The position numbers and the translations under genes are program-made. From an uncultured bacterium (GTDB lineage Bacteria; Patescibacteriota; Patescibacteriia; UBA1558; GWA2-36-10), in the NCBI GenBank assembly GCA_937870675.1, contig CALMZN010000020.1:1-39675 (forward strand): a DNA stretch of 39,675 bases. Reading direction: 5' to 3'. Within the stretch, counting starts at the first letter, position 1, and each line of letters opens with the position of its first letter. Under the pieces are notes generated by a model. It ran no database searches. It saw only the letters and a program-made list of their open reading frames with translations, and was not told the DNA's origin. Below, one piece after another: positions 3,835 to 39,675 of this stretch.

Positions 3835-6399
3835 TTATTTAGCGGCTATTTCATCGGCCTGATCAAAGCTCATGGAAAGCAGTTTTGAAACACCATCATC
3901 GCCCATGGTCACACCATAAATAATTTTGGCATGATGCATAGTAGCTCGATTGTGCGTGATAGCAATAAATTGAGTTTTATTGGAAATTTCTTGCAGTATC
4001 TGACTAAAACGAATTGAATTGGCCTCGTCCAAAGCAGCATCAACTTCATCCAAAAACACAAACGGCGAAGGATTGTTGGCAATGATAGCACAAATCAAAG
4101 CAATAGAGGTCAATGCTTTTTCTCCGCCAGACAGCATATTGATACTCGACAATCTTTTGCCTGGAGGCGTGGCCTTGATCTCGATACCGTATTGTTTTTG
4201 AGTTTTCTTTTCTTGTGGCTCCTCATCAATACTCTCGGCTTCCTCACCATTGCTGATAATATTCTCTTTAATATCCAAAATTAATTCAGCTTTTCCACCA
4301 GCAAACAACTTTTTGAAATAAGAATCAAATAATTTATTGATATTGCGAAAGGCCTGATCAAATTGTTTGGATATTGACTCATCTAGATCTTTGATTATTT
4401 TTTCTAAGTGCGTTATGGCTTCATTCAGATCATCACTTTGTGTTTTCAAAAATTGATAGCGTTCATTGATTTGCTTGTATTCTTCCACAATACTAGGATC
4501 AATGCCACCAATTATTTGTAATTGATTTTTTAAACTGGCGATTTGAACTCGGCTGGCCTCAATATCAACCTGACCCACTTTCTTGGCTTTAAAATCGGCC
4601 ATTTCTTCGCCAATTTCTCGATTCAAATCCTCTTGCTTGGTCTCCAGACGAGCCAAAATAACTTTAATTTCATTTAACTTACCATTTTTAACATTAAATT
4701 CCTGCTGTATTTCACGAAAATCTTTTTGGGACTGCACTAAGCTACTTTTCTTTTTTTCCTCTTGCTCATTGAAGGCGCGCACTTCTTTTTCAATGCTGGC
4801 AATTTTTTTATTCTGCGAATCAATTTTGGCTAGCAGAATTTCTAGCTGATCTTTCAAGCCCTTGTTGTCTTGCTTATTTTCAGCCAGATTTTTACGCTCA
4901 TTTTCTAGCTTTATCAACTCTTGTTTGTCTTTGTTTAACTGTTGATTGATTAAAACAATTTCTTGATCGGCCATGGCCAATCTGGTCTTGGCTTCATTGA
5001 CTTCAGCCACTATATTATCCTTGGTCAGTAGTAATTGGTTGAATTTTCCCGTCCAATCTTGATTGGTGTTTTTGGCTGATCGAGAAAAATAATTTTTTAC
5101 TTCCCACAAACTGGCCGTTATTTGCTGACACAATTTTTTCAATGAATCCAATTTGTCTAGAGCATCGATGTTTTCCAAAGCCCTTTCAAAATCTTGCTGT
5201 TTATCCAATAACGCCGTCACTTTGTGACTTATTTTTTCAGCTGACCATTCGTTGTTGTTGTTCTTGACCTCATCTTCTAATTTTTTAAAATCAGCCAAAA
5301 TAATTTTTTGTTTTTTTTCCAAATCCAAAACCTGCTCTTGAGTTTGTTTTTGGTGGTGCCGTTTCTCCTCTAGGTGCAAATTTTGCAAGTTTACCTCATT
5401 GGCCAATATGTCTAGTCTTTTTTTCAGCCAGACTATATCCACTTGACCAGTAGAAATCAATTGCACATCCATCCGCCCCTCAATAATGGCTTTTTCTTTG
5501 AGCGAACTATTTAGCTCATCTTGCGCTTGGCTCAGGCGATTTTGTAGATGATCAAAATTATCTTGGCGACTGCGTCCTTTTTCTTCTTTTTCCAAACTAG
5601 TTTGTAAGTCAACCAATTTTTGATTCAAATTTGAAACTTCTTTGACTGATTGCTGATACTGACCTTTATAACTAGACAATTCGCTATTCAACTGATTGCT
5701 TAAAAAACTATAATAATCAGTTTGTAAATTATTCAAATCACGAATCAATTGTTCTCTTTTTTCCAACCTTTTTACTTGCCGAGTCAAGCTACGCAAGTGT
5801 GGTTCCAATTCATTCAAAATCTGACTGGTCTGACTTAGATTATTTTTGGCGCCTTCCAGTTTGTTAATGGACTGATCTTTTTTTATCTGAAATTGACGGA
5901 CGCCAGTAGCTTCATCAAAAAATTCTTTGCGCTCAGCTGATGATGCGGTCAGGATGGAATCAATCATGCCTTGGCCAATAACGCTATAGGTCTTCTGACC
6001 AAAATTGGCCTTGGCCAAAAGTAATTGCACATCCATCAGACGCACTCGGCTGTTGTTGATCAAATACTCGCTCTCACCATTGCGATCAATTTTACGAGTA
6101 ATAATAATTTGCTCAAAATCTATGTCCGCCAGATGATCCTGATTGTTAAGATACAAGCTAACTTGCGCAAAACCCAGACGCCCCTTTTTATCAGAGCCAG
6201 CAAAAATTACATCTTCTGATTTTTTGCCACGCAAAGTTTTGGAACTTTGCTCACCCAAGACCCAACGGACAGCATCGGCAATATTTGATTTACCAGAGCC
6301 ATTGGGCCCGACTATAGCCGTCAATTCCCGATTAAAAAAAAGCTCTGTGCTGTTGGCAAAAGATTTGAAACCCTGAATTTCTAGTTTTTCCAAATACAT
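3835..6399 (-). CDS. smc: SMC-family chromosome segregation ATPase, short (854 aa), no recognisable hinge
   Basis: N-head GPNGSGKSN Walker A, GQGMIDSIL Q-loop region, long coiled coil, LSGGEKALTSIAL signature, FVFLDEVDAALDEAN Walker B. Confidence 0.93.
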   Translation of the reverse strand: MYLEKLEIQGFKSFANSTELFFNRELTAIVGPNGSGKSNIADAVRWVLGEQSSKTLRGKKSEDVIFAGSDKKGRLGFAQVSLYLNNQDHLADIDFEQIIITRKIDRNGESEYLINNSRVRLMDVQLLLAKANFGQKTYSVIGQGMIDSILTASSAERKEFFDEATGVRQFQIKKDQSINKLEGAKNNLSQTSQILNELEPHLRSLTRQVKRLEKREQLIRDLNNLQTDYYSFLSNQLNSELSSYKGQYQQSVKEVSNLNQKLVDLQTSLEKEEKGRSRQDNFDHLQNRLSQAQDELNSSLKEKAIIEGRMDVQLISTGQVDIVWLKKRLDILANEVNLQNLHLEEKRHHQKQTQEQVLDLEKKQKIILADFKKLEDEVKNNNNEWSAEKISHKVTALLDKQQDFERALENIDALDKLDSLKKLCQQITASLWEVKNYFSRSAKNTNQDWTGKFNQLLLTKDNIVAEVNEAKTRLAMADQEIVLINQQLNKDKQELIKLENERKNLAENKQDNKGLKDQLEILLAKIDSQNKKIASIEKEVRAFNEQEEKKKSSLVQSQKDFREIQQEFNVKNGKLNEIKVILARLETKQEDLNREIGEEMADFKAKKVGQVDIEASRVQIASLKNQLQIIGGIDPSIVEEYKQINERYQFLKTQSDDLNEAITHLEKIIKDLDESISKQFDQAFRNINKLFDSYFKKLFAGGKAELILDIKENIISNGEEAESIDEEPQEKKTQKQYGIEIKATPPGKRLSSINMLSGGEKALTSIALICAIIANNPSPFVFLDEVDAALDEANSIRFSQILQEISNKTQFIAITHNRATMHHAKIIYGVTMGDDGVSKLLSMSFDQADEIAAK

Positions 6400-6414
6400 G
6401 AAATATCTTCTCTT

Positions 6415-6434
6415 CTTCGCGCAATAGCGCGAAG
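6415..6434 (-). promoter_or_regulatory. Hairpin in the presumed smc 5' leader
   Basis: CTTCGCGC AATA GCGCGAAG perfect 8-bp stem just upstream of the smc start. Confidence 0.45.
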
Positions 6435-6547
6435 TTTATAAATTATTAATTTCATCCCCCGAATCGGCCAGCTGACGGAAAAGGGGGATAAATAAAAAAA
6501 TAACAACTGTTAGCGTTATTATTTTAACATAATTTATGCTTTTGATA

Positions 6548-6762
6548 AATATAAAACCCCCGTCGACAAGCTGTTGCGTCTTGTGATGAGACGGGGGCAA
6601 AGAATGAACGGGCGCCACAGCCATGAGTGGTCGCTGACCCTATCATGGGCCAGAGCTCCAGACACAGAGTCCGCGGACTACATCTGGAGAAAGCTCGCGT
6701 CAATGTCAACGAGTTCCGCTCGTTAGCTCTGTGGCGCCCGAAACCCAAACAAACAATAGTGG
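6548..6762 (-). ncRNA. Candidate structured ncRNA 1 (cloverleaf-like, unknown family)
   Basis: Promoter 6768-6796, 12-bp closing helix 6609-6620/6729-6740, three internal hairpins, terminator 6557-6597; no convincing ORF. Confidence 0.72.
6553..6597 (-). terminator. Intrinsic terminator of ncRNA 1
   Basis: CCCCCGTC...GACGGGGG stem; on the minus strand followed by TTTTATATTT. Confidence 0.78.
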
Positions 6763-6767
6763 TGTCG

Positions 6768-6796
6768 ATATTAGCAAATAGTTGAGAAAATGTCAA
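6768..6796 (-). promoter_or_regulatory. Sigma70-type promoter of ncRNA 1
   Basis: Minus strand TTGACA-N17-TAATAT. Confidence 0.8.
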
Positions 6797-6823
6797 TATA
6801 GCCAAATTAACAAATGATTTAAC

Positions 6824-6864
6824 AAAAAAATTAACCCTCCCGCAGCCGTAGCTTTGGGAGGGTT
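6824..6864 (-). terminator. Intrinsic terminator of ncRNA 2
   Basis: AACCCTCCC / GGGAGGGTT 9-bp stem; minus strand continues AATTTTTTTG. Confidence 0.85.
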
Positions 6865-7082
6865 GAGGGGGTGGGTCGTCGCATCAATCGAAGAGGCATC
6901 GCTGTGGGTTTAGCAGTTTCAAACACTGCCAGAACATCTTGCCTCTACGGGAGCAACCACGACTTTGGGTTTGGACGCCACTGGGTTCCAAGACATCGAT
7001 CTCGATCTAGACCATGTGGCCACAGCGATGAAGGCCTTTCCTCTTTGCTCGCGACGACCCCACAAAAGTGGCATGAGCGAAC
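6824..7082 (-). ncRNA. Candidate structured ncRNA 2 (nested helices, unknown family)
   Basis: Consensus promoter 7089-7117, closing helix 6873-6882/7051-7060, second helix 6897-6907/7020-7030 (11 bp), terminator 6833-6864. Confidence 0.72.
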
Positions 7083-7088
7083 ACAATA

Positions 7089-7117
7089 ATTATATTATGC
7101 CTTAATTTTTTTGTCAA
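7089..7117 (-). promoter_or_regulatory. Full-consensus sigma70 promoter of ncRNA 2
   Basis: Minus strand TTGACA-N17-TATAAT, both hexamers perfect. Confidence 0.88.
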
Positions 7118-7280
7118 AATAAAGATACCCACCGCCTATTAAATATTTATATTATTCATTGTCTATACTGACGATTCAACACCACATCTCGCCCCGCTAA
7201 GCTTTTGTTTTAGCAAAACTTTTGCGGGGTCAAAATAAAGACATCCACCACATACTATGTATTTGTATTATTTGTTACTC
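7113..7280. repeat. Imperfect ~51-bp direct repeat flanking a hairpin
   Basis: 7113-7163 gtcaaaataaagatacccaccgcctatt... versus 7229-7280 gtcaaaataaagacatccaccacatact... Confidence 0.6.
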
Positions 7281-7288
7281 AAAACAAA

Positions 7289-7309
7289 AAAGGGATTTAC
7301 CATCCCTTT
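7289..7309 (-). terminator. Terminator at the 3' end of rnc
   Basis: AAGGGAT/ATCCCTT stem with T-run on the minus strand. Confidence 0.65.
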
Positions 7310-7989
7310 ATTTTCAAGGCCTTAGTAGCGGCCGCGGTTTGGGCTTCTTGTTTGCTATAGCCCTCTCCATCAGCCACCAATTCTTTGTCTAAGTATACGC
7401 CAATAATAAATTTTTTATTATGATCCGGTCCTGACTCTGACAACACCCGATAACGCGGTGTGACATTTTTTATTTCTTGGGCTTTTTCTTGAAAGCGACT
7501 TTTGGCATCAATATATGTTTGGGAAGCAATAATATCTGGCAAAGTCACTAGTATATTTTTTTTAATAAACTTATCAACTACGCGAAATCCTTGATCAAGA
7601 TAAATAGCCCCCAACAAGGCCTCCATAGCATTGGCCAAAATATAAGCGCGGGCTTTTTTGTTGGTGTCTTGGGACTCGCCCTTACTCAAATACAAAAAAC
7701 CATAAATACCTAGTTTTTCAGCAATCATACCTAAGTGTGTGGCATTGACTAAGGCCGAGCGCCAGTTGGTTAGAGTCCCCTCGTTCTCTTGATAATTATG
7801 ATACAAATAATCCGTCACTGACAATTCTAAAACGGCGTCACCCAAAAACTCCAAGCGTTCATTTTGCTCAATGGGAAAATCTTTGTGCTCGTTCAAATAA
7901 GAACGATGCACCAAAGCATTTTTCAAAATATCTGTATTTTTAAATTTTACTTCTAGTTTATCTTCCAATAAAGAAATATTTTTCTGCAT
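7297..7989 (-). CDS. rnc: Ribonuclease III
   Basis: NERLEFLGDAVLELSVTDYLY signature, MEALLGAIYLDQG, C-terminal dsRBD. Confidence 0.96.
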   Translation of the reverse strand: MQKNISLLEDKLEVKFKNTDILKNALVHRSYLNEHKDFPIEQNERLEFLGDAVLELSVTDYLYHNYQENEGTLTNWRSALVNATHLGMIAEKLGIYGFLYLSKGESQDTNKKARAYILANAMEALLGAIYLDQGFRVVDKFIKKNILVTLPDIIASQTYIDAKSRFQEKAQEIKNVTPRYRVLSESGPDHNKKFIIGVYLDKELVADGEGYSKQEAQTAAATKALKIKGW

Positions 7990-25426: not shown

Positions 25427-25460
25427 AAAACCGCCGAGCTTAGCTCAACGGTTTTTTTTT
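25427..25460. terminator. Bidirectional terminator between convergent genes
   Basis: AACCG-CC-GAGC-TTA-GCTC-AA-CGGTT flanked by A and T runs. Confidence 0.75.
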
Positions 25461-26135
25461 GAAACCCAGCACCATATATTGCTGAAGTATTGAGAAAAGT
25501 GTAGTAAATAGCCAGTAAAGCGTCAGGCCAGCTGGCAAGTTGCCACCAATAACAATTGTAAAAATAGGCATAAAGTAAATCATTTGATTGGTCATTATTT
25601 TGGACATGCCTGTCTGCTGTGATTTACCCATCAGCATCTTGGATTGCCAGAATTGAGCTGCCCCAGCCAATATAGCAATAATCCAATTCTTGCTAGCCAA
25701 ATTAATAAAACCAAAAGCAATTATATTTAGCTGTCCGGGATTCTGAACAAAAGAATATAGCAAATCGCCCTTACCGTTGTCTTTGGTCAGCCCGTTTAAA
25801 AATACTTGATAGAGGGCAATCAAAAATGGTAATTGGATTAATGTTGGCAAGCAAGAGGAAAAGGGATTTATTTTTCTTTCTTTGTAAAGCGCCATGAGCT
25901 CGGGCGCCATCTTTTCTTTGTCGTCCTTATATTTTTCTTTGATCTTTTCTATTTCCGGCTGGATAGTCTGTAATTCTTTTTGGGACTTGATGGCTTTTTT
26001 GGAAAATGGATACAAAATCAACCTAATGATCAGGGTTATCAGAATAATGGCCACGCCCAAATCATGACCGGGGGCTAGGTTGTATAAAAAAATTAATAAA
26101 TTGTAAATTGGTTGATAAAAAATTGTAGTGAACAT
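25440..26135 (-). CDS. yidC: YidC/Oxa1-family membrane insertase
   Basis: PGHDLGVAIILITLIIRLILYPFSKKAIKSQKELQTIQPEIEKIKEKYKDDKEKM...NPFSSCLPTLIQLPFLIALYQVF. Confidence 0.95.
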   Translation of the reverse strand: MFTTIFYQPIYNLLIFLYNLAPGHDLGVAIILITLIIRLILYPFSKKAIKSQKELQTIQPEIEKIKEKYKDDKEKMAPELMALYKERKINPFSSCLPTLIQLPFLIALYQVFLNGLTKDNGKGDLLYSFVQNPGQLNIIAFGFINLASKNWIIAILAGAAQFWQSKMLMGKSQQTGMSKIMTNQMIYFMPIFTIVIGGNLPAGLTLYWLFTTLFSILQQYMVLGFKKKPLS

Positions 26136-26752: not shown

Positions 26753-26889
26753 TTAGATGCTTATTTTCTTTCGGCCCCTAGCTTTTCGTCTTTTCAAGAC
26801 TTTTCGACCATCTTTGGTGGCCATGCGCTTCATAAAACCGTGTTTTTTGCTGGCGCGTTTTTTATTGGGGCGAAATGATGGCTTAGCTT
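26753..26889 (-). CDS. rpmH: 50S ribosomal protein L34; 5' end at or disrupted by the chimeric junction
   Basis: ...[43 protein letters not shown]; upstream frame reads into fabI antisense-frame sequence. Confidence 0.85.
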
Positions 26890-26892
26890 TCG
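26874..26892. other. Putative chimeric junction between two genomes
   Basis: Abrupt AT-rich to GC-rich switch, CPR-like to betaproteobacteria-like genes; fabI TAA (26883-26885) overlaps the rpmH start region. Confidence 0.85.
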
Positions 26893-27665
26893 GCACCGGC
26901 GGTGGAATTGAAGCCGGCATCAACGTAGGTAATTTCGCCGGTAATGCCTGAGGCCAGGTCGGAGAGCATGAAGGCGGCGGCGTTGCCGACTTCTTCAATC
27001 GTCACGTTGCGGCGCAACGGCGCATTCTTGGCGACGATGTCGAGTTTCTCACCGAAGTTGGCGATGCCGCTGGCGGCCAGCGTCTTGATCGGGCCGGCTG
27101 ATATGGCATTGACGCGGATGCCCTTGGGTCCAAGGCTCTGCGCCATGTAGTACACGCTGGATTCAAGGCTGGCTTTAGCCAGGCCCATGACGTTGTAGTT
27201 GGGAATGGAGCGGTTGGCGCCCAGATACGACAGTGTAAGCAGTGCAGCCTGACGGCCTGCCATCATCGGTAACGCGGCCTTGGCCAGCGCGGCAAAGCTG
27301 TAGGAACTGATGTCGTGCGCGATGCGGAAGTTTTCACGGGTTACCGAGGAGAGAAAATCGCCGGCCAGCGCATCCTTCGGCACGAAGGCAATCGAGTGCA
27401 CCAGGCCATCGAGTCCATCCCAGTGTTTGCCGAGTTCGGCAAACACAGCATCGATTTGTTCGTCGCTGCCGACATCGCAGGGGAATACCAGGCTGGAACC
27501 AAATTCCTGGGCAAATTCCGTGACGCGATCCTTGATGCGATCGCCCTGATAGGTGAAGGCAAGTTCGGCACCTTCGCGCCTGCATGCTTCAGCGATGCCA
27601 TATGCGATCGAACGGTTGGAGATGACGCCGGTGATGAGCAAACGCTTGCCTGCAAGAAATCCCAT
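26883..27665 (-). CDS. fabI: Enoyl-[acyl-carrier-protein] reductase [NADH]
   Basis: [43 protein letters not shown]...[45 protein letters not shown]. Confidence 0.96.
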
Positions 27666-27739
27666 GATGGTCTCGAATGGTTGAGAATGACGCGATTATA
27701 ACGGCTGACGTTGACCACGGGCTTGGGTACACTTGCGGC

Positions 27740-29902
27740 ATGACACGGATCGGGGCGTTTTTATTCAGGACAGGTCTGCTGGGGCTGGGCTTGAGCCTGA
27801 TGGCAAGCTGCTCCGATCGCCTGAACACTCCCTATCCCGACAGTGAGACAGGCGCCAATGTGCTTTACAGCGCATTTTCCGAGCGTCCCAAGCATCTCGA
27901 CCCGGCGCGTTCCTACAGTTCGAACGAAGTCGAGTTCACAGGCCAGATCTACGAGCCGCCGCTGCAGTACCATTTTCTCAAGCGCCCCTACACGCTGATT
28001 CCTCTGACCGCCGAAGCCGTGCCCAGGCCGCGGTATGTCGACGCCGCCGGCAACGCACTGCCGGACGATGCGCCAGCAGCATCGATCGCAGAGAGCGTGT
28101 ACGAAATCCGGATTCGCCCCGGCATCCGCTACCAGCCGCATCCGGCGTTTGCGCGGGATGAAGCGGGGCGTTATCGTTATCATGCGCTCCCTGCATCGGA
28201 GATCGCCGGAAAAACCCGTATTCGTGATTTCGGGCACAGCGGCACCCGGGAATTGGTCGCTGCCGATTACGTGTACCAGATCAAGCGGTTGGCCAATCCC
28301 CGGCTCAGCTCGCCGATTTTTGGTTTGATGAGCGAGCATATCGTCGGCCTTAAGGCGCTGGGTGAAACGCTTGAAAAAGCAGCCAAAGCTGATCCCGTTG
28401 CGGCGCTAAAGCTCGACGACTTTCGGCTTGACGGGGCCGAAGTGGTCGATCGCCATACCTACCGCATTCGCATCAAGGGCAAATATCCGCAGTTCATCTA
28501 CTGGCTGGCGATGCCGTTCTTTGCGCCCATTCCATGGGAAGCCGAGGTGTTTTACGCACAGCCCGGGATGGCGGATAGGAATCTCACTCTCGACTGGCAG
28601 CCGGTCGGCACCGGCCCGTATTATCTGGCTGAGAACGATCCCAACCGCCGCATGGTGCTGAGGAAAAATCCGCACTTCCACGGCGAGACCTATCCGGCGG
28701 AAGGCAGTGCAGAGGACCGGCGGGACGGGCTGCTGGCGGACGCTGGCAAGCCGCTGCCGTTCGTGGACGAAGCGGTATTCAGCCTGGAAAAGGAAACCAT
28801 TCCCTACTGGAGCAAGTTTTTACAGGGCTATTACGATAGTTCCGGCATCAGTTCAGACAGCTTCGACCAAGCCGTGCAGTTCACCTCCGGCGGCAATCCG
28901 CAACTCACCGACAGCATGCGCGATCAGGACATCCATCTCATCACGACGGTGGCAGCTTCGCTCTGGTATGTTGGATTCAACATGCTCGACCCTGTGGTGG
29001 GGGGGGGGGGCGAGGACCGCCGGAAGCTTCGACAGGCGCTCTCCATCGCCTTCGACTACGACGAATTCATTTCGATTTTCCTGAATGGCCGCGGCATCCC
29101 GGCACAAGGGCCAATCCCGCCCGGGCTGTTCGGTTATGTCGAAGGCGAGGCGGGGTTGAATGCCTATGTGTACGAAGCGCACGACGGCCAGATTCGGCGC
29201 CGATCCATCGAAACGGCCAAGAAACTGCTGGCCGAGGCGGGTTATCCGAATGGACGCAATGTGAAAACGGGCGAACCGCTGGTGCTGTATTTCGACACCA
29301 TGGCGAGTGGACCCGATGCCAAGTCACGGCTCGACTGGATGAAGAAGCAGCTCGACAAGCTTAACGTGCAGCTGGTGGTTCGTGGCACCGACTACAATCG
29401 CTTCCAGGACAAGATCCGCAAGGGCAACGCACAACTGTTCGAGTGGGGCTGGAACGCCGACTACCCTGACCCGGAGAATTTCCTCTTCCTGCTGTACGGT
29501 CCGCACAAGAAGGTCGTCAGCGGCGGCGAGAATGCGGCCAACTACGACAACCCGGAATTCAACCGCCTGTTCGAGCGCATGAAGGACATGGATAACGGCC
29601 CTGGACGCCAGCAGGTGATCGACGCCATGCTGGAGATCGTGCGCCGCGATGCGCCGTGGATCTTCGCCTACTACCCCAAGTCCTTCGGCCTGCGCCACGG
29701 CTGGGTGCACAACGTCAAGCCCAACCTGATGGCGAATAACACACTCAAGTACCGGCGTATCGATCCTGCGCTGCGCGAGACCAGGCGTGCCGAATGGAAC
29801 AAGCCGGTGCTGTGGCCGATCGGACTGCTGCTTGCCGGATTGGCCGCGGTGATCGCCCCAGCGGTGATCGCGTGGCGGCGGCACGAGAGGAAAACCGCCT
29901 GA
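27740..29902 (+). CDS. Extracellular solute-binding protein family 5 (oligopeptide ABC transporter, YejA-like), lipoprotein
   Basis: Lipobox-like LSLMASCS; DPARSYSSNEVEFTGQIYEPPLQYHFLKRPY; start chosen 21 codons into the ORF-track entry. Confidence 0.88.
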   Translation: MTRIGAFLFRTGLLGLGLSLMASCSDRLNTPYPDSETGANVLYSAFSERPKHLDPARSYSSNEVEFTGQIYEPPLQYHFLKRPYTLIPLTAEAVPRPRYVDAAGNALPDDAPAASIAESVYEIRIRPGIRYQPHPAFARDEAGRYRYHALPASEIAGKTRIRDFGHSGTRELVAADYVYQIKRLANPRLSSPIFGLMSEHIVGLKALGETLEKAAKADPVAALKLDDFRLDGAEVVDRHTYRIRIKGKYPQFIYWLAMPFFAPIPWEAEVFYAQPGMADRNLTLDWQPVGTGPYYLAENDPNRRMVLRKNPHFHGETYPAEGSAEDRRDGLLADAGKPLPFVDEAVFSLEKETIPYWSKFLQGYYDSSGISSDSFDQAVQFTSGGNPQLTDSMRDQDIHLITTVAASLWYVGFNMLDPVVGGGGEDRRKLRQALSIAFDYDEFISIFLNGRGIPAQGPIPPGLFGYVEGEAGLNAYVYEAHDGQIRRRSIETAKKLLAEAGYPNGRNVKTGEPLVLYFDTMASGPDAKSRLDWMKKQLDKLNVQLVVRGTDYNRFQDKIRKGNAQLFEWGWNADYPDPENFLFLLYGPHKKVVSGGENAANYDNPEFNRLFERMKDMDNGPGRQQVIDAMLEIVRRDAPWIFAYYPKSFGLRHGWVHNVKPNLMANNTLKYRRIDPALRETRRAEWNKPVLWPIGLLLAGLAAVIAPAVIAWRRHERKTA

Positions 29903-30879
29903 TGCTGGCCTATATCCTGCGCCGCCTGCTCTATGCCATCCCGATCCTGATCGGGGTGAACCTGCTGACGTTTGCGCTGTTCTTCGTCGTCAACACGCCG
30001 GACGACATGGCGCGGCTGCAGCTAGGCGCCAAGCACGTGACGCCTGAGGCGATCGAGCGCTGGAAGGTCGAGCACGGCTACGACAAGCCGCTGCTGCTGA
30101 ACGCCGAGGCGAGTGGCAGTTCGCAATTTACTGACACGATCTTCTTCAAGCACTCGGCCGCCATGTTCGTCTTCGAATTTGGCAAAGGTGACGACGGGCG
30201 CGACATTGGCAACGAAATCCGCACACGCATGGGGCCGAGCCTGGCGATCGCGCTGCCGGTGTTTGTCATCGGATTGCTGGCCAATATCAGCTTCGCCCTG
30301 TTGATGGTGTTTTTCCGCACGAGCTATCTCGACCTGTGGGGCGTGGTGCTGTGCGTGGTGCTGATGTCGATCTCGGGGCTGTTCTACATCATCGCCGGGC
30401 AGTATTTCATCGCCAAGCTTTGGAATCTGTTGCCGATTTCGGGCTTCGCCGGCGGCATCGACGGCCTGAGGTTCATCCTGCTGCCGGTTTTGGTCAGTGT
30501 GGTGGCCGGTATCGGCAGCGGGTCACGCTGGTATCGGACCATCTTCCTTGAGGAAATCGGCAAGGACTATGTGCGCACCGCTCGCGCCAAAGGCCTGAGC
30601 GAAGTACGCGTGCTGTTCCGTCACGTGCTGAAGAACGGCATGATTCCTATCCTTACCGGCGCGGTGGTGGTGCTGCCGCTGTTGTTCATGGGCAGCCTCA
30701 TCACCGAGTCCTTCTTCGGCATTCCCGGGCTCGGCAGCTACACCATCGACGCGATCCAGGCGCAGGACTTCGCCGTGGTGCGCGCGATGGTGTTTCTCGG
30801 ATCCTTCCTCTACATCGTCGGCCTTATCCTCACCGACGTTTCCTATTCCTTGGTCGATCCGCGGGTGCGGCTGCAATGA
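29902..30879 (+). CDS. ABC transporter permease (YejB-like)
   Basis: MLAYILRRLLYAIPILIGVNLLTFALFFVVNTPDDMAR...EEIGKDYVRTARAKGLSEVRVLFRHVLKN; overlaps the upstream stop. Confidence 0.93.
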   Translation: MLAYILRRLLYAIPILIGVNLLTFALFFVVNTPDDMARLQLGAKHVTPEAIERWKVEHGYDKPLLLNAEASGSSQFTDTIFFKHSAAMFVFEFGKGDDGRDIGNEIRTRMGPSLAIALPVFVIGLLANISFALLMVFFRTSYLDLWGVVLCVVLMSISGLFYIIAGQYFIAKLWNLLPISGFAGGIDGLRFILLPVLVSVVAGIGSGSRWYRTIFLEEIGKDYVRTARAKGLSEVRVLFRHVLKNGMIPILTGAVVVLPLLFMGSLITESFFGIPGLGSYTIDAIQAQDFAVVRAMVFLGSFLYIVGLILTDVSYSLVDPRVRLQ

Positions 30880-32285
30880 ATAGCATCCAGCCCGTCATCC
30901 TGTGGACCGATGCACTGATTTTCGCACTGCTGGCAGCGGTGCTGGCCCTGGTGTGGCTCATCCGACGCCAGGAGCATCTGCTGGCGCCATGGCGAGTGGT
31001 GGCACAGCGGCCGATGGCTATGGGCTCGGCGCTGGTGCTCGGGGTATTCGTGGTCATTGGCCTTCTCGATTCGCTGCATTACCGCGAGCGGTTGGCCGAC
31101 AGCCCGGCCGACGCACCACAATATTCAGTCGAGGTGCTGTCTTTATTCGACGCGCTACTGAGTGAACTGCGTGCCCGCCCGGAAAAGACCTATTCCGCAC
31201 CGCTGGCGATGCATCTGTATGCCAAGGAGTTCGTCGAACGCGACGGCGCGACCGTGCGCGACTACCCGCGCCTGCAGTTCGGCGGTGCGCACCTGCAACA
31301 CGCGGACGCGCGCCTGCCCGACATTGCCCGGCGCACGCTTGACGGTGCCATGCAGGGCGCACTGGCGGGTCTGCTACTGTTTGCCGGGCTGGCCGGGTGG
31401 CAGGCGCGACGCAGGCAGATGACGCCCGGTGGATGGCTGGCAACCTGGAGCAGGGGGGATCTCGACTGGCCGGGACGGACGGTCGTCCTCGTCGTGGCGG
31501 GCATGCTGATGCTGACAGGGGTCATCGTGCAGCTGGCGTCTGGCTATCACGTGCTGGGTACGGATAAAGTGGGGCAGGACGTGCTCTACATCAGCCTCAA
31601 GAGCATCCGCACTGGCCTGGTGATCGGCACGCTCACCACCTTGGTCACGCTGCCGCTTGCGATCGGGTTCGGCATTGCTGCCGGCTATTTTCGCGGCTGG
31701 GTGGACGACGTCATCCAGTACATCTACACCGTGCTCAACTCCATCCCTGGCGTGCTGCTGATCGCCGCGGCCGTACTTATCGTGCAAGTGTATATCGAAT
31801 CCAATCCGGAACAATTCGATACCGCTGCCGCGCGTGCCGACATCCGCCTGCTGGCGCTCTGTCTGATCATGGGCGTGACCAGTTGGACGGGGTTGGCCAG
31901 ACTGCTGCGGGGTGAATCGCTCAAGCTGCGCACGCTTGATTACGTCGAAGCGGCACGCGCCTTTGGTGTGTCGAACACGCGCATCATCAGTCGCCACATC
32001 TTTCCCAACGTGTTTCACCTTGTGCTGATTGCCATCGTGCTGGATTTTTCCGGCCTGGTGCTGGCCGAAGCGGTGCTGTCCTACGTCGGCGTCGGCGTCG
32101 ATCCCTCGATGTACAGCTGGGGCAACATGATCAACGGCGCGCGGCTCGAACTGGCGCGCGAGCCTGTCGTCTGGTGGCAGCTTGGGGCAGCGTTCGCCTT
32201 TATGTTCACCCTGGTGCTGGCCGCCAACCTGTTTGCCGACAGCGTGCGCGACGCCTTCGACCCGCGCCTGGGGGGGCGTCGATGA
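30876..32285 (+). CDS. ABC transporter permease (YejE-like)
   Basis: GTDKVGQDVLYISLKSIRTGLVIG...LRGESLKLRTLDYVEAARAFGVSNTRIISRHIFPN. Confidence 0.93.
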   Translation: MNSIQPVILWTDALIFALLAAVLALVWLIRRQEHLLAPWRVVAQRPMAMGSALVLGVFVVIGLLDSLHYRERLADSPADAPQYSVEVLSLFDALLSELRARPEKTYSAPLAMHLYAKEFVERDGATVRDYPRLQFGGAHLQHADARLPDIARRTLDGAMQGALAGLLLFAGLAGWQARRRQMTPGGWLATWSRGDLDWPGRTVVLVVAGMLMLTGVIVQLASGYHVLGTDKVGQDVLYISLKSIRTGLVIGTLTTLVTLPLAIGFGIAAGYFRGWVDDVIQYIYTVLNSIPGVLLIAAAVLIVQVYIESNPEQFDTAAARADIRLLALCLIMGVTSWTGLARLLRGESLKLRTLDYVEAARAFGVSNTRIISRHIFPNVFHLVLIAIVLDFSGLVLAEAVLSYVGVGVDPSMYSWGNMINGARLELAREPVVWWQLGAAFAFMFTLVLAANLFADSVRDAFDPRLGGRR

Positions 32286-34264
32286 AGCCCCTGTTCGAGG
32301 TGCGCGATCTTGTTACCGGTTTCGGCCCGGTGCGCGTGGTCGATGGCGTGTCGTTCCGGGTCGCGGCAGGCGAAACCTATGCTCTGCTGGGCGAATCGGG
32401 CTGCGGAAAGTCGATCACCGCGCTGTCGCTGATGCGGCTGCTGCCGGATGGCGGCCGGGTGGTTTCGGGCAGCGTGCAACTCGGCGAAACCGACGTTCTG
32501 GCCTTGCCCGAACGCGACATGCGGCGCGTGCGCGGCGGACAGATGGCGATGATCTTCCAGGAGCCGATGCTGGCCTTGAACCCGGTTATCAAGGTCGGTG
32601 AACAGATCGGCGAAGCGCTGGCGCTGCACCAGGGGCTGGCGGGGCAGGCTGCACGCGATGCCGCGCGTGGGCTGCTCGATGCGGTGGGCGTGCCGGACGC
32701 GGTGCGCCGGCTCGACAGCTATCCGTTCGAACTCTCGGGCGGCCTGCGCCAGCGGATGATGATTGCAATGGCGCTGGCCGGCCGGCCGCAACTGCTGATC
32801 GCCGACGAGCCGACCACCGCGCTCGACGTGACCATCCAGGCGCAGGTGCTCGACGTGCTGCGCAGACTCAAGGCCGAGCAGCGGATGGGCATGCTGCTGA
32901 TCACGCATGACCTTGGCGTGGTGGCCGAAAACGCCGACCGCGTGGGGGTGATGTATGCCGGAGAACTGGTGGAGGAGGGAATGCGCGATGCGTTCTTCTC
33001 CGCGCCGCAACACCCCTACAGCCGCATGCTGTTCGAGGCGCTACCGCACACTGGCGACGGTGGACGGCTAACCACGATTCCCGGCCAGGTTCCGAAACTC
33101 GACGGGGCAACGCGCGGCTGCCGCTTTGCGCCGCGCTGCCCGTTCGCGATTGCACGCTGCCGCGCTGAATCGCCGGACTGGCAGGAGCTTAACGATCAGC
33201 GGGTGCGCTGCCACCTGGCGGGTGCCTTGCCTGCACGCCAAGAGCGCGAGCTCACCGCACATTCGGTAAAGCAAGCTGGGCAACAGCTGCTGCAGGTGGA
33301 CGGCCTCAAGGTGCATTTTCCGATCCGGCGTGGCCTGATCCAGCGCACGGTGGGCCATGTGCGCGCGGTCGACGGCGTGTCTCTGGACATCCAGGCGGGC
33401 CGCACGCTGGCGCTGGTGGGCGAATCGGGCTGCGGCAAGACCACCGTGGGCAAGGCACTGCTGCGGCTGATCGAGCCGACCGCGGGCAGCATCGTGCTGG
33501 GCGGCGAGCGCATTACCGCGAAGCATGCCTCTATCCTGCGACGGCAGGCGCAGATGGTATTCCAGGATCCGTTTAGCTCACTCAATCCGCGCATGCGGGT
33601 GGCGGACATTCTGCTCGAAGGCATGGACGCACTGAATGTTGGCGCGGGTAGCGACCGCCGCGACGCGGTGGCGCGTCTGCTGCATCAGGTCGGGCTGCCG
33701 GACGATGCCGGGGGCCGCTATCCGCATGCATTCTCCGGCGGGCAGCGGCAGCGCATCGCGATCGCGCGGGCGCTGGCGGTGTCGCCCCAGCTGGTGATCT
33801 GCGACGAGCCAACCAGCGCACTCGACGTCTCGGTGCAGGCGCAGATCCTGAATCTGCTGAAGGATCTGCAGGACAACCTGGGGCTGGCCTACCTTTTCAT
33901 CACCCACAACCTTGCGGTGGTTGATTATCTTGCGCACGAGGTGGCGGTGATGTACCTCGGGCGCATCGTCGAACACGGCGCCGCCACCGACGTGCTGCGT
34001 GCGCCACGCCATCCCTACACGCAGGCACTGGTGAGTGCGGTGCCGCGCATCGAGCCTCACGACGGCGCAGGCATCATCCGGCTGGCGGGCGACCAGCCCT
34101 CGCCGCTGAATCCGCCAGACGGCTGCCACTTCAACCCGCGCTGTCCGTACGCGAGTGAGGTGTGCCGGAAAACCTACCCCGAGCAGACCGAACTGAGGAA
34201 CGGGCATTGGGTGCGCTGCCACTGGGTTGCGGGCCAAGGTTTTTCCGCAGGTCGTGTGGATTGA
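32282..34264 (+). CDS. ABC transporter ATP-binding protein with two NBDs (YejF-like)
   Basis: Two Walker A ([18 protein letters not shown]), two Walker B ([24 protein letters not shown]), oligopeptide C-terminal motif; ATG 36 codons inside the ORF-track start. Confidence 0.94.
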
Positions 34265-34426
34265 ACCTGATAACAGCAGTTGACCGCTCATCACCCTTGC
34301 AAACGCCGCATGAATACAAGATTGGGTTCCTTCAATGCCGTTCACCGGGTGGGTGAGTCCGCTACACGCCCGGTGACACGTCTGCTCGTGCGCCTGCCTT
34401 TGTGCCCGCACGGAATAGGCTGGATT

Positions 34427-34450
34427 GGCAAAGCGGCAAAGCGGCAAAGC
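34427..34450. repeat. Short tandem repeat (GGCAAAGC)x3
   Basis: ggcaaagcggcaaagcggcaaagcggcg. Confidence 0.8.
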
Positions 34451-34776
34451 GGCGACGACTCCGCTCTCGCGGCTTCTTGCGGATCCCGGACCCACTGCGC
34501 CGTTGCTTTGCGGCAGACACCCGATCAGACGCGCCCTCGGGCGCATCCAACTGCGGTTTCTAGGTTGAACGCCGACAAACCCAGCAGTAATTTCTGGATG
34601 GGTAACGGCATCCTGGGTGGCGGCCATGCTGATGCTGTTCTTCATGGGGCCGCTATCGAACGCGACGGGCATCCTGGCAAGCGCGCCGTGGATCTTGCTT
34701 TCCGCCGTGGTCATGGCGCGTGTGATGTCGGACTGGCGTGGTGAACCACCTGAGCCTGATTACCAGCTTTCCTGTC

Positions 34777-36120
34777 TCAAGGTTTCCGGACGACGACAGT
34801 CTGGCCTGCGCGGATCATGCCGCTGTTCCGGATGGCAGGATTCCACGCCTTGATATCCGCGAGGCTGATGTCGAAACGCTGCGCGATGCTAAACAGCGTG
34901 TCGCCGCGCCGCACTTCATGCCGGGTCAGCGTTCGCGCTGACAGGTCGTTGTGTGCCTCCGCGGGGCCTTTGACCGGAACGAGTATGGTCTGCGCGCGCA
35001 CCAGTTTGCCCTTTTTCAAATCCAGCTGGTTGTGTTCTTCGAGGCGGGCAAGGCTGACGTTGAAGCGCCTGGCAATGGCTGCGGCGCGCTCGCCTTTTTG
35101 CGCCGTGTAGGGTTGCCAGGTGTCCCAGTTTCCGGTTTCCAGGTTGCGCTGGAACTTGTCCGACTTGTCGACGGGAACCAGCAGACTCACCGGCGTATCG
35201 GAGCGGATCAGCTTGCGTGGGAAGGCGGCATTCAGTGCAGCGAATTCATCGCTGCTCATGTTCGCCAGCCGCGCAGCGGAGTGGAGATCCATGTTGGCCT
35301 GGACGGTGACCTGGCTGAAATAAGGTTGGTTCGGCAATGGCTCGATGGCAACGTTGTAACGCTCGGGCGCGTGGATCAAGGTTCTCAGCGCCAGCAGCTT
35401 GGGGACGTAATGTCGGGTTTCGTTCGGCAAGGACAGGCTGGCGTAGTCGGTAGGCAGTCCCTGCTGGACATTGTTCTGGATGGCACGAGTGACGCAGCCC
35501 TCGCCGCAGTTGTAGGCTGCTAATGCCAGTTGCCAGTCGCCGAAGTCCAGATACAGCTTGCCCAGGTAGTCGAGCGCGGCACTTGTGGCGGCCGTGAAGT
35601 CTCGCCGCCCGTCGTACCAGGTGTCCTGCCTCAGTCCGTAGTGGCGTCCGGTGGAGGGAATGAATTGCCAGATGCCGGAAGCCGCAGCAGACGAAAGCGC
35701 GGCCGGGTTGAACGCGCTCTCGACCATCGGCAGCAGGGCGATTTCCATCGGCATCGCACGCCGGTGGAGTTCCTCGACGATATGGTAGAGGTAAGGGCGC
35801 GAACGCTCAGCCATGCGACGCACGTTGTCCGGCCGGGCTGCAAACCAGGATTCGTGGACGGCAACCAGCGGGTTTTGCATGGCCATACCGTCGATGCGGA
35901 AACCATCACGAATGCGTTGCCAGACATCGTCGTGGCTGGCTTCTGCCGCAGTATCGCTTTCGATGCCGACGTCATCGCTGCCCCACTCCAGCGTCTGGAT
36001 ACTGGCGTGGGGTGCTTCGGCAAACGCAGGGTGGCAGAAGAAAACCGCCAGCAAGGCCAAGCTGAACAGGCTTGATCGGGGGGCGGCCGGTTTGATGCGG
36101 CCTAATTTGACTCCGGGCAA
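34777..36120 (-). CDS. mltD: Membrane-bound lytic murein transglycosylase D with LysM domains
   Basis: ALLPMVESAFNPAALSSAAASGIWQFIPSTGRHYGL...LALAAYNCGEGCV; C-terminal LysM HEVRRGDTLFSIAQRFDISLADIKAWN. Confidence 0.94.
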   Translation of the reverse strand: MPGVKLGRIKPAAPRSSLFSLALLAVFFCHPAFAEAPHASIQTLEWGSDDVGIESDTAAEASHDDVWQRIRDGFRIDGMAMQNPLVAVHESWFAARPDNVRRMAERSRPYLYHIVEELHRRAMPMEIALLPMVESAFNPAALSSAAASGIWQFIPSTGRHYGLRQDTWYDGRRDFTAATSAALDYLGKLYLDFGDWQLALAAYNCGEGCVTRAIQNNVQQGLPTDYASLSLPNETRHYVPKLLALRTLIHAPERYNVAIEPLPNQPYFSQVTVQANMDLHSAARLANMSSDEFAALNAAFPRKLIRSDTPVSLLVPVDKSDKFQRNLETGNWDTWQPYTAQKGERAAAIARRFNVSLARLEEHNQLDLKKGKLVRAQTILVPVKGPAEAHNDLSARTLTRHEVRRGDTLFSIAQRFDISLADIKAWNPAIRNSGMIRAGQTVVVRKP

Positions 36121-36173
36121 GTCGGTCTCCCGTACTCAACAAGGTCTCATCCTAAGTTCCTGGGCGAATATGG

Positions 36174-36944
36174 TCAACCATCCCAGGCATCCTTGGCGGC
36201 GCGGATCGCCCCGAACACTTCAGCTGGGCCGGGATGCGGACATTTCAGAAAGCGGGTGGCAAAAGCCGTCATGTCAGGTGTGTGGAAGCGCAGGAACGGA
36301 TTGGTGGCCTTTTCCAGCGCCAGGGTCGAGGGCAGGGTGGGACAGTTGCGCGCACGCAGGGCGCGGTCGGTTCGCTCGCGTTCCTGGAGTGCGGGGTTAT
36401 CCCTGTCGATGGTCTTGGCAAAATCGATGTTGCTGAGGGTGTATTCATGTGCACAGCAGACCCGGGTCGCATCGGGCAACGCTAAAATGGCGTCGAGGCT
36501 GGCTGCCATTATCGCGGGTGTGCCTTCGAACAACTTACCGCAACCGCAGCCGAATACAGTATCGCCGCAGAACAGGCAGCCGTGGCCTATGTAACTGAGA
36601 TGATCGAGCGTGTGTCCCGGTGTGGCCAGCACGTCGAGGTGCAGGCCGAGCTCAAGGAAGTCGACCGAATCGCCGCCATAAAGCGGGTGGGTAACCGCAG
36701 GGATGAGCGGGTTGTCCGGGGCGTAGACGGCACATTCGTAGCGTTGACGCAGCACCGCGTTCCCGCCAGTATGGTCGCGGTGGTGGTGGGTGATCAGCAC
36801 CGCGGTCAAATCGAGTTGATGTGCGTCGAGAAAGGCGATCAGCGGCACGGGATCGCCAGGGTCTACCGCCACGGCGGCGCGGTCGTCGTGCCACACCCAG
36901 ATGTAGTTGTCTTCGAACGCGGGCAGGGGAATGAGTGTCAACAT
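36174..36944 (-). CDS. gloB: Hydroxyacylglutathione hydrolase (glyoxalase II)
   Basis: LIPLPAFEDNYIWVW, LITHHHRDHTGGN, TPGHTLDHLSYIG, CAHEYTLSNIDFA. Confidence 0.95.
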   Translation of the reverse strand: MLTLIPLPAFEDNYIWVWHDDRAAVAVDPGDPVPLIAFLDAHQLDLTAVLITHHHRDHTGGNAVLRQRYECAVYAPDNPLIPAVTHPLYGGDSVDFLELGLHLDVLATPGHTLDHLSYIGHGCLFCGDTVFGCGCGKLFEGTPAIMAASLDAILALPDATRVCCAHEYTLSNIDFAKTIDRDNPALQERERTDRALRARNCPTLPSTLALEKATNPFLRFHTPDMTAFATRFLKCPHPGPAEVFGAIRAAKDAWDG

Positions 36945-36973
36945 GATGGAGCTACCAGACAGAGAGAGCCGCT

Positions 36974-37711
36974 ATGTTATCCAAGCTGAATAACGAATGG
37001 TTTGAAACGCCGCTGGGACAGCACCTGCTGTTTCGCGAGCAGCGCTATTTCGACGATGCGGTGTCGGATGTGTTCGGCTTCAATGCCGTACAGGTCGGCC
37101 TGCCGCAACTCGATTTCCTGCGCAACAGCCGCATTCCGCTGCGTGTGACCTGTGCGGTTGAAGCATCGTCCCAGGTGCGGGCCGATGCCATGTTCCTGCC
37201 GTTCGAGAGCCAGTCGCTCGATCTGCTGCTGTTGCCGCACGTGCTGGAATTCAGTGCCAACCCGCACCAGGTGCTGCGCGAGGCCGAGCGGGTGCTGCGC
37301 CCGGAAGGCCGGCTAATGCTGGCTGGCTTCAATCCGCGCAGCCTGTGGGGGCTGGCGCGCGTATTGCAGGGCGGCGAGCGCGGTTATCCGTGGAACGGCA
37401 GCTTCCTGAATATTTCGCGGGTGAAGGACTGGATGGTATTGCTGGGACTCGAGGTGGCGGCCGGCAGCATGTGCTGCTACAGGCCGCCGATCAACCGCGA
37501 GCACTGGCTGCGTCGACTGCGCTTCATGGAGCCCGCAGGGGACCGTTGGTGGGCCATGGGCGGCGGCGTGTATTTCCTTCAGGCGGTGAAGCGGGTGCAG
37601 GGCATGAATATTATTTTGCCGCAATGGAAAACACCGGTGGCGCAGCGTTTATTATCGCCGGCAGCCAAGGTGATCAATCTGAAACAGTATCGGGTGCGTC
37701 GTGATCGCTGA
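36974..37711 (+). CDS. Class I SAM-dependent methyltransferase
   Basis: [53 protein letters not shown]. Confidence 0.88.
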
Positions 37712-38150
37712 CACCATATACATCTATAGTGATGGCGCCTGCAAGGGCAACCCCGGCCCGGGCGGCTGGGGCGCCTTGCTGGTGGCGCACGGACATCGCA
37801 AGGAAATCAGCGGCGGCGAAGCGAACACCACCAACAACCGCATGGAAATGACTGCGGTGATCCGTGCGCTGGAATCGCTGAAGCGCCCGTCCACGGTCGA
37901 GGTCCACACCGATTCTCAATATGTGCAGAAAGGCATCAGCGAATGGATGGCCGGCTGGAAACGGCGCAACTGGCACACCGCCGACGGCAAGCCGGTCAAG
38001 AACCAGGATCTGTGGCTGCAACTGGATGCACTGAGCCAGCTGCACACCATCCAGTGGAAATGGGTAAGAGGCCATGCGGGCCACCCGGAAAATGAACGCG
38101 CCGACCAACTGGCCAACCTAGGTGTGCTTCAGGCACAACAACACTTATAA
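37701..38150 (+). CDS. rnhA: Ribonuclease HI
   Basis: [64 protein letters not shown]. Confidence 0.97.
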
Positions 38151-38155
38151 CAACC

Positions 38156-38860
38156 ATGCGACAAATCATTCTCGATACAGAAACCACCGGCCTTGACCAC
38201 AGCCAGGGGCATCGCATCATCGAGGTGGCTGCGGTTGAAATGGTCAATCGTCGGCTCACTGGCAACCATCTGCACCGCTATGTCAACCCCGACCGCGATA
38301 TCGACGCCGGTGCGATGCAGGTGCACGGCATCACCCCGGAATTTCTCCAGGACAAGCCGCGTTTTGCCGATATCGCCCGGGAGTTCGTCGACTACATCCA
38401 GGGCGCCGAGCTCATCATTCACAATGCACCGTTCGATGTCGGCTTCCTCAACATGGAGCTACGCCTGCTCGACATGGCGCCGCTGACGACTTGGTGCGAC
38501 GGCGTGACTGACACCCTGGCGATGGCCAAGGCGCTGCATCCCGGCCAACGCAACAACCTGGACGCACTGTGCAAACGTTATGGCGTGGATAACGCGGCAC
38601 GCACCCTGCACGGCGCCCTGCTCGACTGCGAATTGCTGGCTGCGGTATATCTGGCGCTTACGCGCGGACAGGAAAGTCTTTCGATTGGGCTGGAAATCCG
38701 CAGTGTGCAGGCCGATCAGGCTGCAGCGCGCTTGCGCCCCAGGCCCGTGCTGTCTCAGGCATCCGCCGAGGAACTGGATGCGCACGCCAGCCTGCTCGAG
38801 GCGATCGCCAGTGAGAGCAAGGGCGCCTGCCTGTGGGGCGCGGAGCAGGAAGCGGTTTGA
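38156..38860 (+). CDS. dnaQ: DNA polymerase III epsilon subunit
   Basis: MRQIILDTETTGLDHSQGHRIIEVAAVEMVNRRLTGNHLHRYVNPDR...HNAPFDVGFLNMEL. Confidence 0.96.
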   Translation: MRQIILDTETTGLDHSQGHRIIEVAAVEMVNRRLTGNHLHRYVNPDRDIDAGAMQVHGITPEFLQDKPRFADIAREFVDYIQGAELIIHNAPFDVGFLNMELRLLDMAPLTTWCDGVTDTLAMAKALHPGQRNNLDALCKRYGVDNAARTLHGALLDCELLAAVYLALTRGQESLSIGLEIRSVQADQAAARLRPRPVLSQASAEELDAHASLLEAIASESKGACLWGAEQEAV

Positions 38861-38868
38861 CCGCTTGC

Positions 38869-39675
38869 ATGCCGGGCAGGTGGGCCACGCTTCAGCGCAT
38901 CGCGCGTTGGGGGCTGGTGTGCGTGTGTCTGATCCTGGTGTCGGCGCAGGCGGTCGCCGCACGGGTGGTGGTGGTGCTGAGCAATGATTCGGCGCCGTAC
39001 CAGGAGGTCTATCAGGTCGTCCGTACCTTGCTGGACGATAGTCCCCATGAACTCAGCCGTGTGTATGCCGATAAACTGACCGCATCCGCACTGGGGGGGG
39101 CCAGCCTGGTTGTTGCCGTGGGCGTGCGTGCGGGGGACGCAGTGGCGTTGCTTGCGGACCGTCCTCCGGTGCTGGCGGTGCTGGTGCCGCGCGCATGGTA
39201 TGTCAGGGACGGGCGTTCAAAGCTGGATGGCAGCGGCTATGCGTCAGCCATCTATCTCGATCAACCCTTCGAGCGTCAGGCGAGGCTTATAAACCTCGCC
39301 TTTCCCGACGTGCGTAGGGTGGGTGTGCTGTTGAGCAACGATCAGGGTGATCTGGTGGGTGAACTGGACGCAGCCCTGCGCAGGCAGCAAATCGATCTGC
39401 TGCCAGGCATGCTGACGAGCGATGAACGGCTGATCGGTACGCTCGAAAACGTCTTGTCGGGAGCCGACTTGCTGCTGGCCGTGGCGGACCCGAAGGTGTT
39501 TAACCGCAACACGGCGCAAAGCCTTTTTCTGACAACCTATCGCTACCGCGTTCCGGTTGTGGGCTATTCACAGTCGCTGACACGGGCCGGTGCGCTGTTG
39601 TCGCTGCATTCCAGCCCGGCGCAAATCGGCCGCCAAACCGCCGAATGGGTGCTCGGCGCCCTCCAGGGCGCATCG
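38869..39675 (+). CDS. Exported ABC-substrate-binding-like protein, partial at window edge
   Basis: Open frame to window end: MPGRWATLQRIARWGLVCVCLILVSAQAVAARVVVVLSNDSAPYQEVYQVVRTLL...; signal peptide; not in the ORF track because it runs off the end. Confidence 0.65.
   Translation, partial: MPGRWATLQRIARWGLVCVCLILVSAQAVAARVVVVLSNDSAPYQEVYQVVRTLLDDSPHELSRVYADKLTASALGGASLVVAVGVRAGDAVALLADRPPVLAVLVPRAWYVRDGRSKLDGSGYASAIYLDQPFERQARLINLAFPDVRRVGVLLSNDQGDLVGELDAALRRQQIDLLPGMLTSDERLIGTLENVLSGADLLLAVADPKVFNRNTAQSLFLTTYRYRVPVVGYSQSLTRAGALLSLHSSPAQIGRQTAEWVLGALQGAS

Follow-up and report, generated by a model that had tools for sequence, protein, structure and literature searches.

The interval between the housekeeping genes rnc and smc in the 39,675-nt stretch of DNA analysed here (‘the window’) very probably contains a real RNA gene, ncRNA1. 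Judged from its sequence, ncRNA1 is probably an orphan structured small RNA (sRNA), for which any function is a prediction only. The best overall explanation, to which we give a probability of about 0.5, is a stand-alone, species-restricted sRNA gene, one of four of common build in the same genome, whose product would serve as a scaffold or decoy. An earlier note on this DNA had proposed a stand-alone structured RNA gene outside the known families, and the proposal is supported, the Rfam search that it suggested having returned no family. The note did not extend to the relatives, in which the same interval holds other structured RNAs, or proteins.

The ncRNA1 locus and predicted fold

The closest named relatives of the window's SMC protein are from Candidatus Komeilibacteria and other Parcubacteria, and by this protein sequence the window is Komeilibacteria-like (Patescibacteria). 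Near 26.86 kb there is an abrupt change in GC content, from approximately 0.39 to 0.58–0.67; the part from 26860 to 39675, with genes for an Opp-type peptide transporter and a LysM/SLT lytic transglycosylase, suggests a chimeric contig or contaminating DNA of a different bacterium, and ncRNA1 is unaffected by it. The gene lies on the minus strand of the 897-nt rnc–smc interval, the features of which are as follows.

3835–6399, minus strand: smc (SMC_N)
6521–6548, minus strand: smc promoter-like site, TTATCA-N16-TAAAAT, kept in the same-genus genome (L006)
6551–6598, minus strand: GC-rich intrinsic terminator of ncRNA1, GCCCCCGTC..GACGGGGGT followed by TTTTATATTT, folding as a 9-bp stem with an inner hairpin
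6551–6762, minus strand: predicted ncRNA1 transcript, ~210 nt, its ends placed from the positions of promoter and terminator
6609–6740, minus strand: structured domain of ncRNA1, 132 nt, with a perfect 12-bp closing helix at 6740–6729/6620–6609 (mean pair probability 0.92)
6621–6648, minus strand: arm C, CCATGA/TCATGG with GGTC/GACC, one among competing pairings (mean pair probability 0.26, 0.24)
6656–6689, minus strand: central arm B, CTCCAGATG/TGTCTGGAG topped by AGTC/GACT (mean pair probability 0.92, 0.95)
6707–6725, minus strand: arm A, TAACGAG/CTCGTTG, one among competing pairings (mean pair probability 0.30)
6768–6796, minus strand: sigma-70-type promoter of ncRNA1, TTGACA at 6796–6791, N17, TAATAT at 6773–6768, with TG before the −10 element (10/12 consensus matches)
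7297–7989, minus strand: rnc (ribonuclease III)

The elements on which the earlier note had built its claim are all present: the TTGACA-N17-TAATAT promoter on the minus strand, the perfect 12-bp closing helix, the three hairpin sequences (AACGAG/CTCGTT, CTCCAGA/TCTGGAG with AGTC/GACT, and CCATGA/TCATGG with GGTC/GACC) and the GC-rich terminator, overlooked by a simple terminator scan because of its long loop. The absence of a good open reading frame also held, in that no Shine-Dalgarno sequence was seen by eye and the open reading frames within ncRNA1 gave no Pfam or PHROG match. The description ‘upstream of smc’ is correct as to position, but a terminator and then a separate smc promoter-like site intervene, so that the simplest reading of ncRNA1 is that of an independent transcript, and its link to smc is one of position only. 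Nor was any Rfam aptamer match found in the window that would favour a riboswitch or smc-leader reading, and the smc promoter-like site sits after the terminator.

The closing helix pairs CGGGCGCCACAG (6740–6729) with CTGTGGCGCCCG (6620–6609) and encloses 108 nt. Dinucleotide shuffling of the 897-nt interval produced a perfect helix of at least 12 bp with a loop of 50–220 nt in 2% of cases, and in the 828 kb of the genome ncRNA1 has the longest GC-rich, unique closing helix accompanied by a promoter and a terminator. Minimum free energy was well below that of shuffled sequences for the 215-nt transcript (z −3.9) and for the 132-nt domain (z −4.3; 0/300 shuffles), whereas the interior without its clamp was of ordinary stability (z −1.3; 30/300 shuffles). 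Of the cloverleaf that had been suggested, the closing helix and central arm (pair probability approximately 0.9) stand, but the side arms (0.24–0.30) do not stand out from their rivals: the three-hairpin fold, at −63.6 kcal/mol, competes with folds at −63.4, −63.4 and −62.8 kcal/mol (at least three folds within 0.8 kcal/mol). As modelled, then, the sequence supports a clamped domain and, within it, a strong central arm, ‘cloverleaf-like’ being one option of several.

Known RNA families and the search for relatives

Rfam scanning of the window recovered tRNAs only, and at E≤10 the region 6380–7300 gave chance matches only, with 6S RNA (RF00013) not among them. The earlier note had set ncRNA1 apart from tmRNA, RNase P RNA, signal recognition particle (SRP) RNA and 6S RNA, and in each case this was borne out. 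Neither tmRNA (RF00023) nor bacterial RNase P RNA (RF00010) matched in the window, and both are encoded elsewhere in the genome (G000), at G000:C63:6862-7242 (112 bits) and G000:C43:5954-6331 (178 bits) respectively; the tmRNA gene was missed by ARAGORN and recovered by the covariance model. 6S RNA is approximately 200 nt long, with a long closing helix and its own transcript, and in these respects ncRNA1, as a predicted independent transcript, resembles it; however, 6S RNA is a rod with a central bubble, while ncRNA1 is predicted to be multi-armed and has no match to that family at E≤10.

For the bacterial small SRP RNA (RF00169) there was no match in the window, and the SRP core motif is absent genome-wide. 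None of 21 family genomes (G000 and 20 relatives, including a one-contig, 97%-complete genome) gave a match to RF00169 (E≤1) or to the Ffh M domain (PF02978), the latter being present in 14/14 controls; the SRP-type GTPase P-loop motif G.[NQ]G.GKTT was not found in G000. The whole family seems to be without a signal recognition particle, which makes it improbable that ncRNA1 is an SRP RNA in a new location. The window encodes a YidC/Oxa1-type protein (60KD_IMP), at 25443–26135.

No homologue of ncRNA1 was detected. BLASTN against the 21 family genomes returned only chance matches of 19–20 nt; a single-sequence covariance model found only ncRNA1 itself in 38 genomes of the order and 389 of the class (388 others in the class, scanned with stricter filters) and matched nothing in 25 relatives' loci; and neither the closing-helix pattern in viral contigs nor distant BLASTN in phages and plasmids gave a match. 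The sole other genome of the genus, G005, whose SMC N-terminus is 94% identical, keeps ncRNA2 (see below) and the smc promoter-like site in its rnc–smc interval and has a gene for a 135-amino-acid orphan protein in the ncRNA1 slot, so that ncRNA1 looks dispensable within the genus; G005 is 68% complete and could hold a copy elsewhere.

Companion RNAs and the rnc–smc and mnmA spots

Intergenic DNA of all 84 contigs (828 kb) was surveyed for a sigma-70-type promoter, a unique GC-rich closing helix of at least 9 bp and a terminator, rows arising from dispersed repeats (for example GTCATTCTGG, 29 copies) being dropped. Thirteen rows resulted, of which four were convincing by eye, namely ncRNA1 and three companions, the remainder being AT-rich, overlapping or weak. 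The companions, one of them in the rnc–smc interval itself, are placed as follows; the names mnmA and alaS were assigned from the gene sequences, without a family search.

6829–7117, minus strand: ncRNA2, promoter TTGACA-N17-TATAAT (12/12), closing helix GGGTCGTCGC/GCGACGACCC at 7060–7051/6882–6873, terminator at 6864–6833
L188 5050–5760 (contig C70 of G000), minus strand: RNA3 and RNA4, a two-RNA array between mnmA and alaS

The build of ncRNA2 is that of ncRNA1, and it is the better supported of the two, a homologue that shows a compensatory change being present in G005. RNA3 and RNA4 are likewise found at the same place in G005, with largely different interiors. In this sister species promoter, closing helix and terminator persist in all three companions, around interiors of which most has been replaced; the predicted ncRNA2 transcripts, for example, are 258 nt here and 172 nt in G005, their interiors differing in length. 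Closing helices changed on both sides, with pairing kept, in three instances (ncRNA2, T-A to C-G; RNA3, A-T to G-C; RNA4a, C-G to T-A), and the remaining changes were one-sided and consistent with pairing. The RNA4b helix could be aligned only with a bulge and allows no clean count, which leaves the total of double changes at three. Preservation of the helix by compensatory change thus extends to ncRNA2, RNA3 and RNA4a, ncRNA1 being without a G005 homologue. Rfam found one tRNA and nothing else in 16 loci carrying companion RNAs, and no ORF family was found.

ncRNA1 itself falls within what may be called the clamped RNAs (promoter, closing helix of at least 9 bp and terminator, at the rnc–smc or mnmA spot). 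In other genera the rnc–smc gap holds other clamped RNAs of different sequence, and the longest helix in the gap exceeded that of shuffles (P≤0.04) in 8/16 family genomes; among more distant gaps, one of six tested did so, by way of a T-run helix. Two clamped RNAs, unrelated in sequence, also follow mnmA in G015, which belongs to a different genus. A hairpin 8-mer, UGAGUCGC, lying 30–44 nt inside the closing helix, is common to a subset of the RNAs in five genera (rnc–smc gaps of L007, L011, L017, L018, L023 and L045), against a maximum of four genera in 100 shuffles. Some of this group also carry ACACCUCC, resembling the anti-Shine-Dalgarno end of 16S rRNA; the MAFFT alignment of the group was too poor for structure modelling. 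These RNAs share with ncRNA1 the interval, promoter, closing helix and terminator, but ncRNA1 has no sequence similarity to them and lacks the UGAGUCGC hairpin, which is absent from ncRNA2 also. In L007, L008, L009 and L011 a GC-rich orphan gene, antisense to smc and apparently encoding a secreted protein, occupies the same slot upstream of smc. On these sequence comparisons, the family's rnc–smc gap appears to be a hypervariable RNA-gene spot.

Possible modes of action and wider meaning

The four candidate genes have in common a strong sigma-70 promoter, a GC-rich multi-arm body, a closing clamp of 9–15 bp and an intrinsic terminator. Transcription of ncRNA1 would yield ~210 nt of RNA whose fold is guarded and held by the closing helix and which would act in trans rather than on smc. 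It may be a compact scaffold or decoy whose interior binds a protein or another RNA, the clamp being the constant part and the interior a fast-evolving, species-specific recognition part. We put forward scaffold or decoy action only tentatively, judging it less likely than not; it is weakly preferred over antisense action because few bases of ncRNA1 are accessible and its predicted targets do not exceed controls.

Most bacterial sRNAs of about this size act by pairing, and ncRNA1 could act in trans as an antisense sRNA, its loops pairing with mRNAs, for example at ribosome-binding sites; the RNAs of other genera in the same interval, some of which are C-rich with the anti-Shine-Dalgarno-like ACACCUCC, lend this some weight. 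However, CCUCC is absent from ncRNA1, in which just three stretches, of 8–10 nt, are accessible, its best duplexes with 681 start regions were at the level of shuffled loops in duplex energy, and the occurrence of ACACCUCC in three genera is within shuffle expectation, all of which makes antisense action unlikely.

It is improbable that the locus is an insulator, in which a self-contained transcript and its terminator shield smc from rnc transcription and the RNA itself is functionless. The terminator followed by a conserved smc promoter-like site is what such a device might look like, and the sequence does appear replaceable, G005 having a protein gene there; yet a terminator alone would be enough, and such a device would need neither a near-consensus promoter and a 12-bp helix nor compensatory change in the companions.

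That ncRNA1 is a chance GC-rich, hairpin-rich stretch giving rise to no transcript is also hard to credit. The helix probability of 0.02 within the interval is not vanishing, the interior is ordinary in stability and there is no homologue, but a near-consensus promoter, helix and terminator occur together convincingly at only four sites in the genome, and relatives have positional analogues. A role as RNase III substrate or regulator (double-stranded decoy or feedback element) is likewise improbable, for despite the closeness of ncRNA1 to rnc, the adjacency of rnc and smc in most family genomes and the likeness of long perfect helices to RNase III substrates, cleavage usually involves approximately 20 bp where ncRNA1 offers 12, RNA3 and RNA4 have the same build after mnmA on another contig, and in L047 the rnc–smc gap is merely 76 nt.

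Two further comparisons with known systems apply. A comparative intergenic survey yielded 104 candidate RNAs (PMC2864571), which like ncRNA1 are intergenic, structured, without an open reading frame and outside protein-coding annotation; those candidates were defined by covariation across homologues, whereas ncRNA1 is known from a single genome and its companions vary within the genus. GOLLD, ROOL and OLE are ornate, multi-arm noncoding RNAs with a possible scaffold or assembly function (PMC12286853), OLE being ~600 nt (PMC9723947). They share with ncRNA1 a multi-arm, stand-alone noncoding form, but are far larger and conserved in sequence, where ncRNA1 is ~210 nt, lineage-specific and without an Rfam match. 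Among open-licence papers we found none on noncoding RNA of Komeilibacteria or structured RNA of the CPR, and little seems to be known of regulatory or structural RNAs in Patescibacteria.

Bacterial orphan sRNAs are an already known kind; ncRNA1 is new to Rfam, and it is uncommon for a constant frame to be combined, at fixed loci, with an interior that can be replaced. More worthy of attention than ncRNA1 alone is the pattern seen across relatives. A broader and distinctly speculative reading, which we hold to be unlikely, is that Komeilibacteria possess RNA genes of an unrecognised kind, often paired in tandem, in which a constant shell (promoter, clamp, terminator and fixed chromosomal position) surrounds a hypervariable interior replaced between sister species, in the manner of an arms-race recognition part or a species-specific ribonucleoprotein, ncRNA1 being the most lineage-restricted of the four. 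The rnc–smc spot and that downstream of mnmA are fixed landmarks, usable in any metagenome. Were the constant-shell pattern true, it would mean that selection acts on the frame of the fold while the interior changes from one sister species to the next, and would account for the failure of homology-based RNA surveys to recover such genes.
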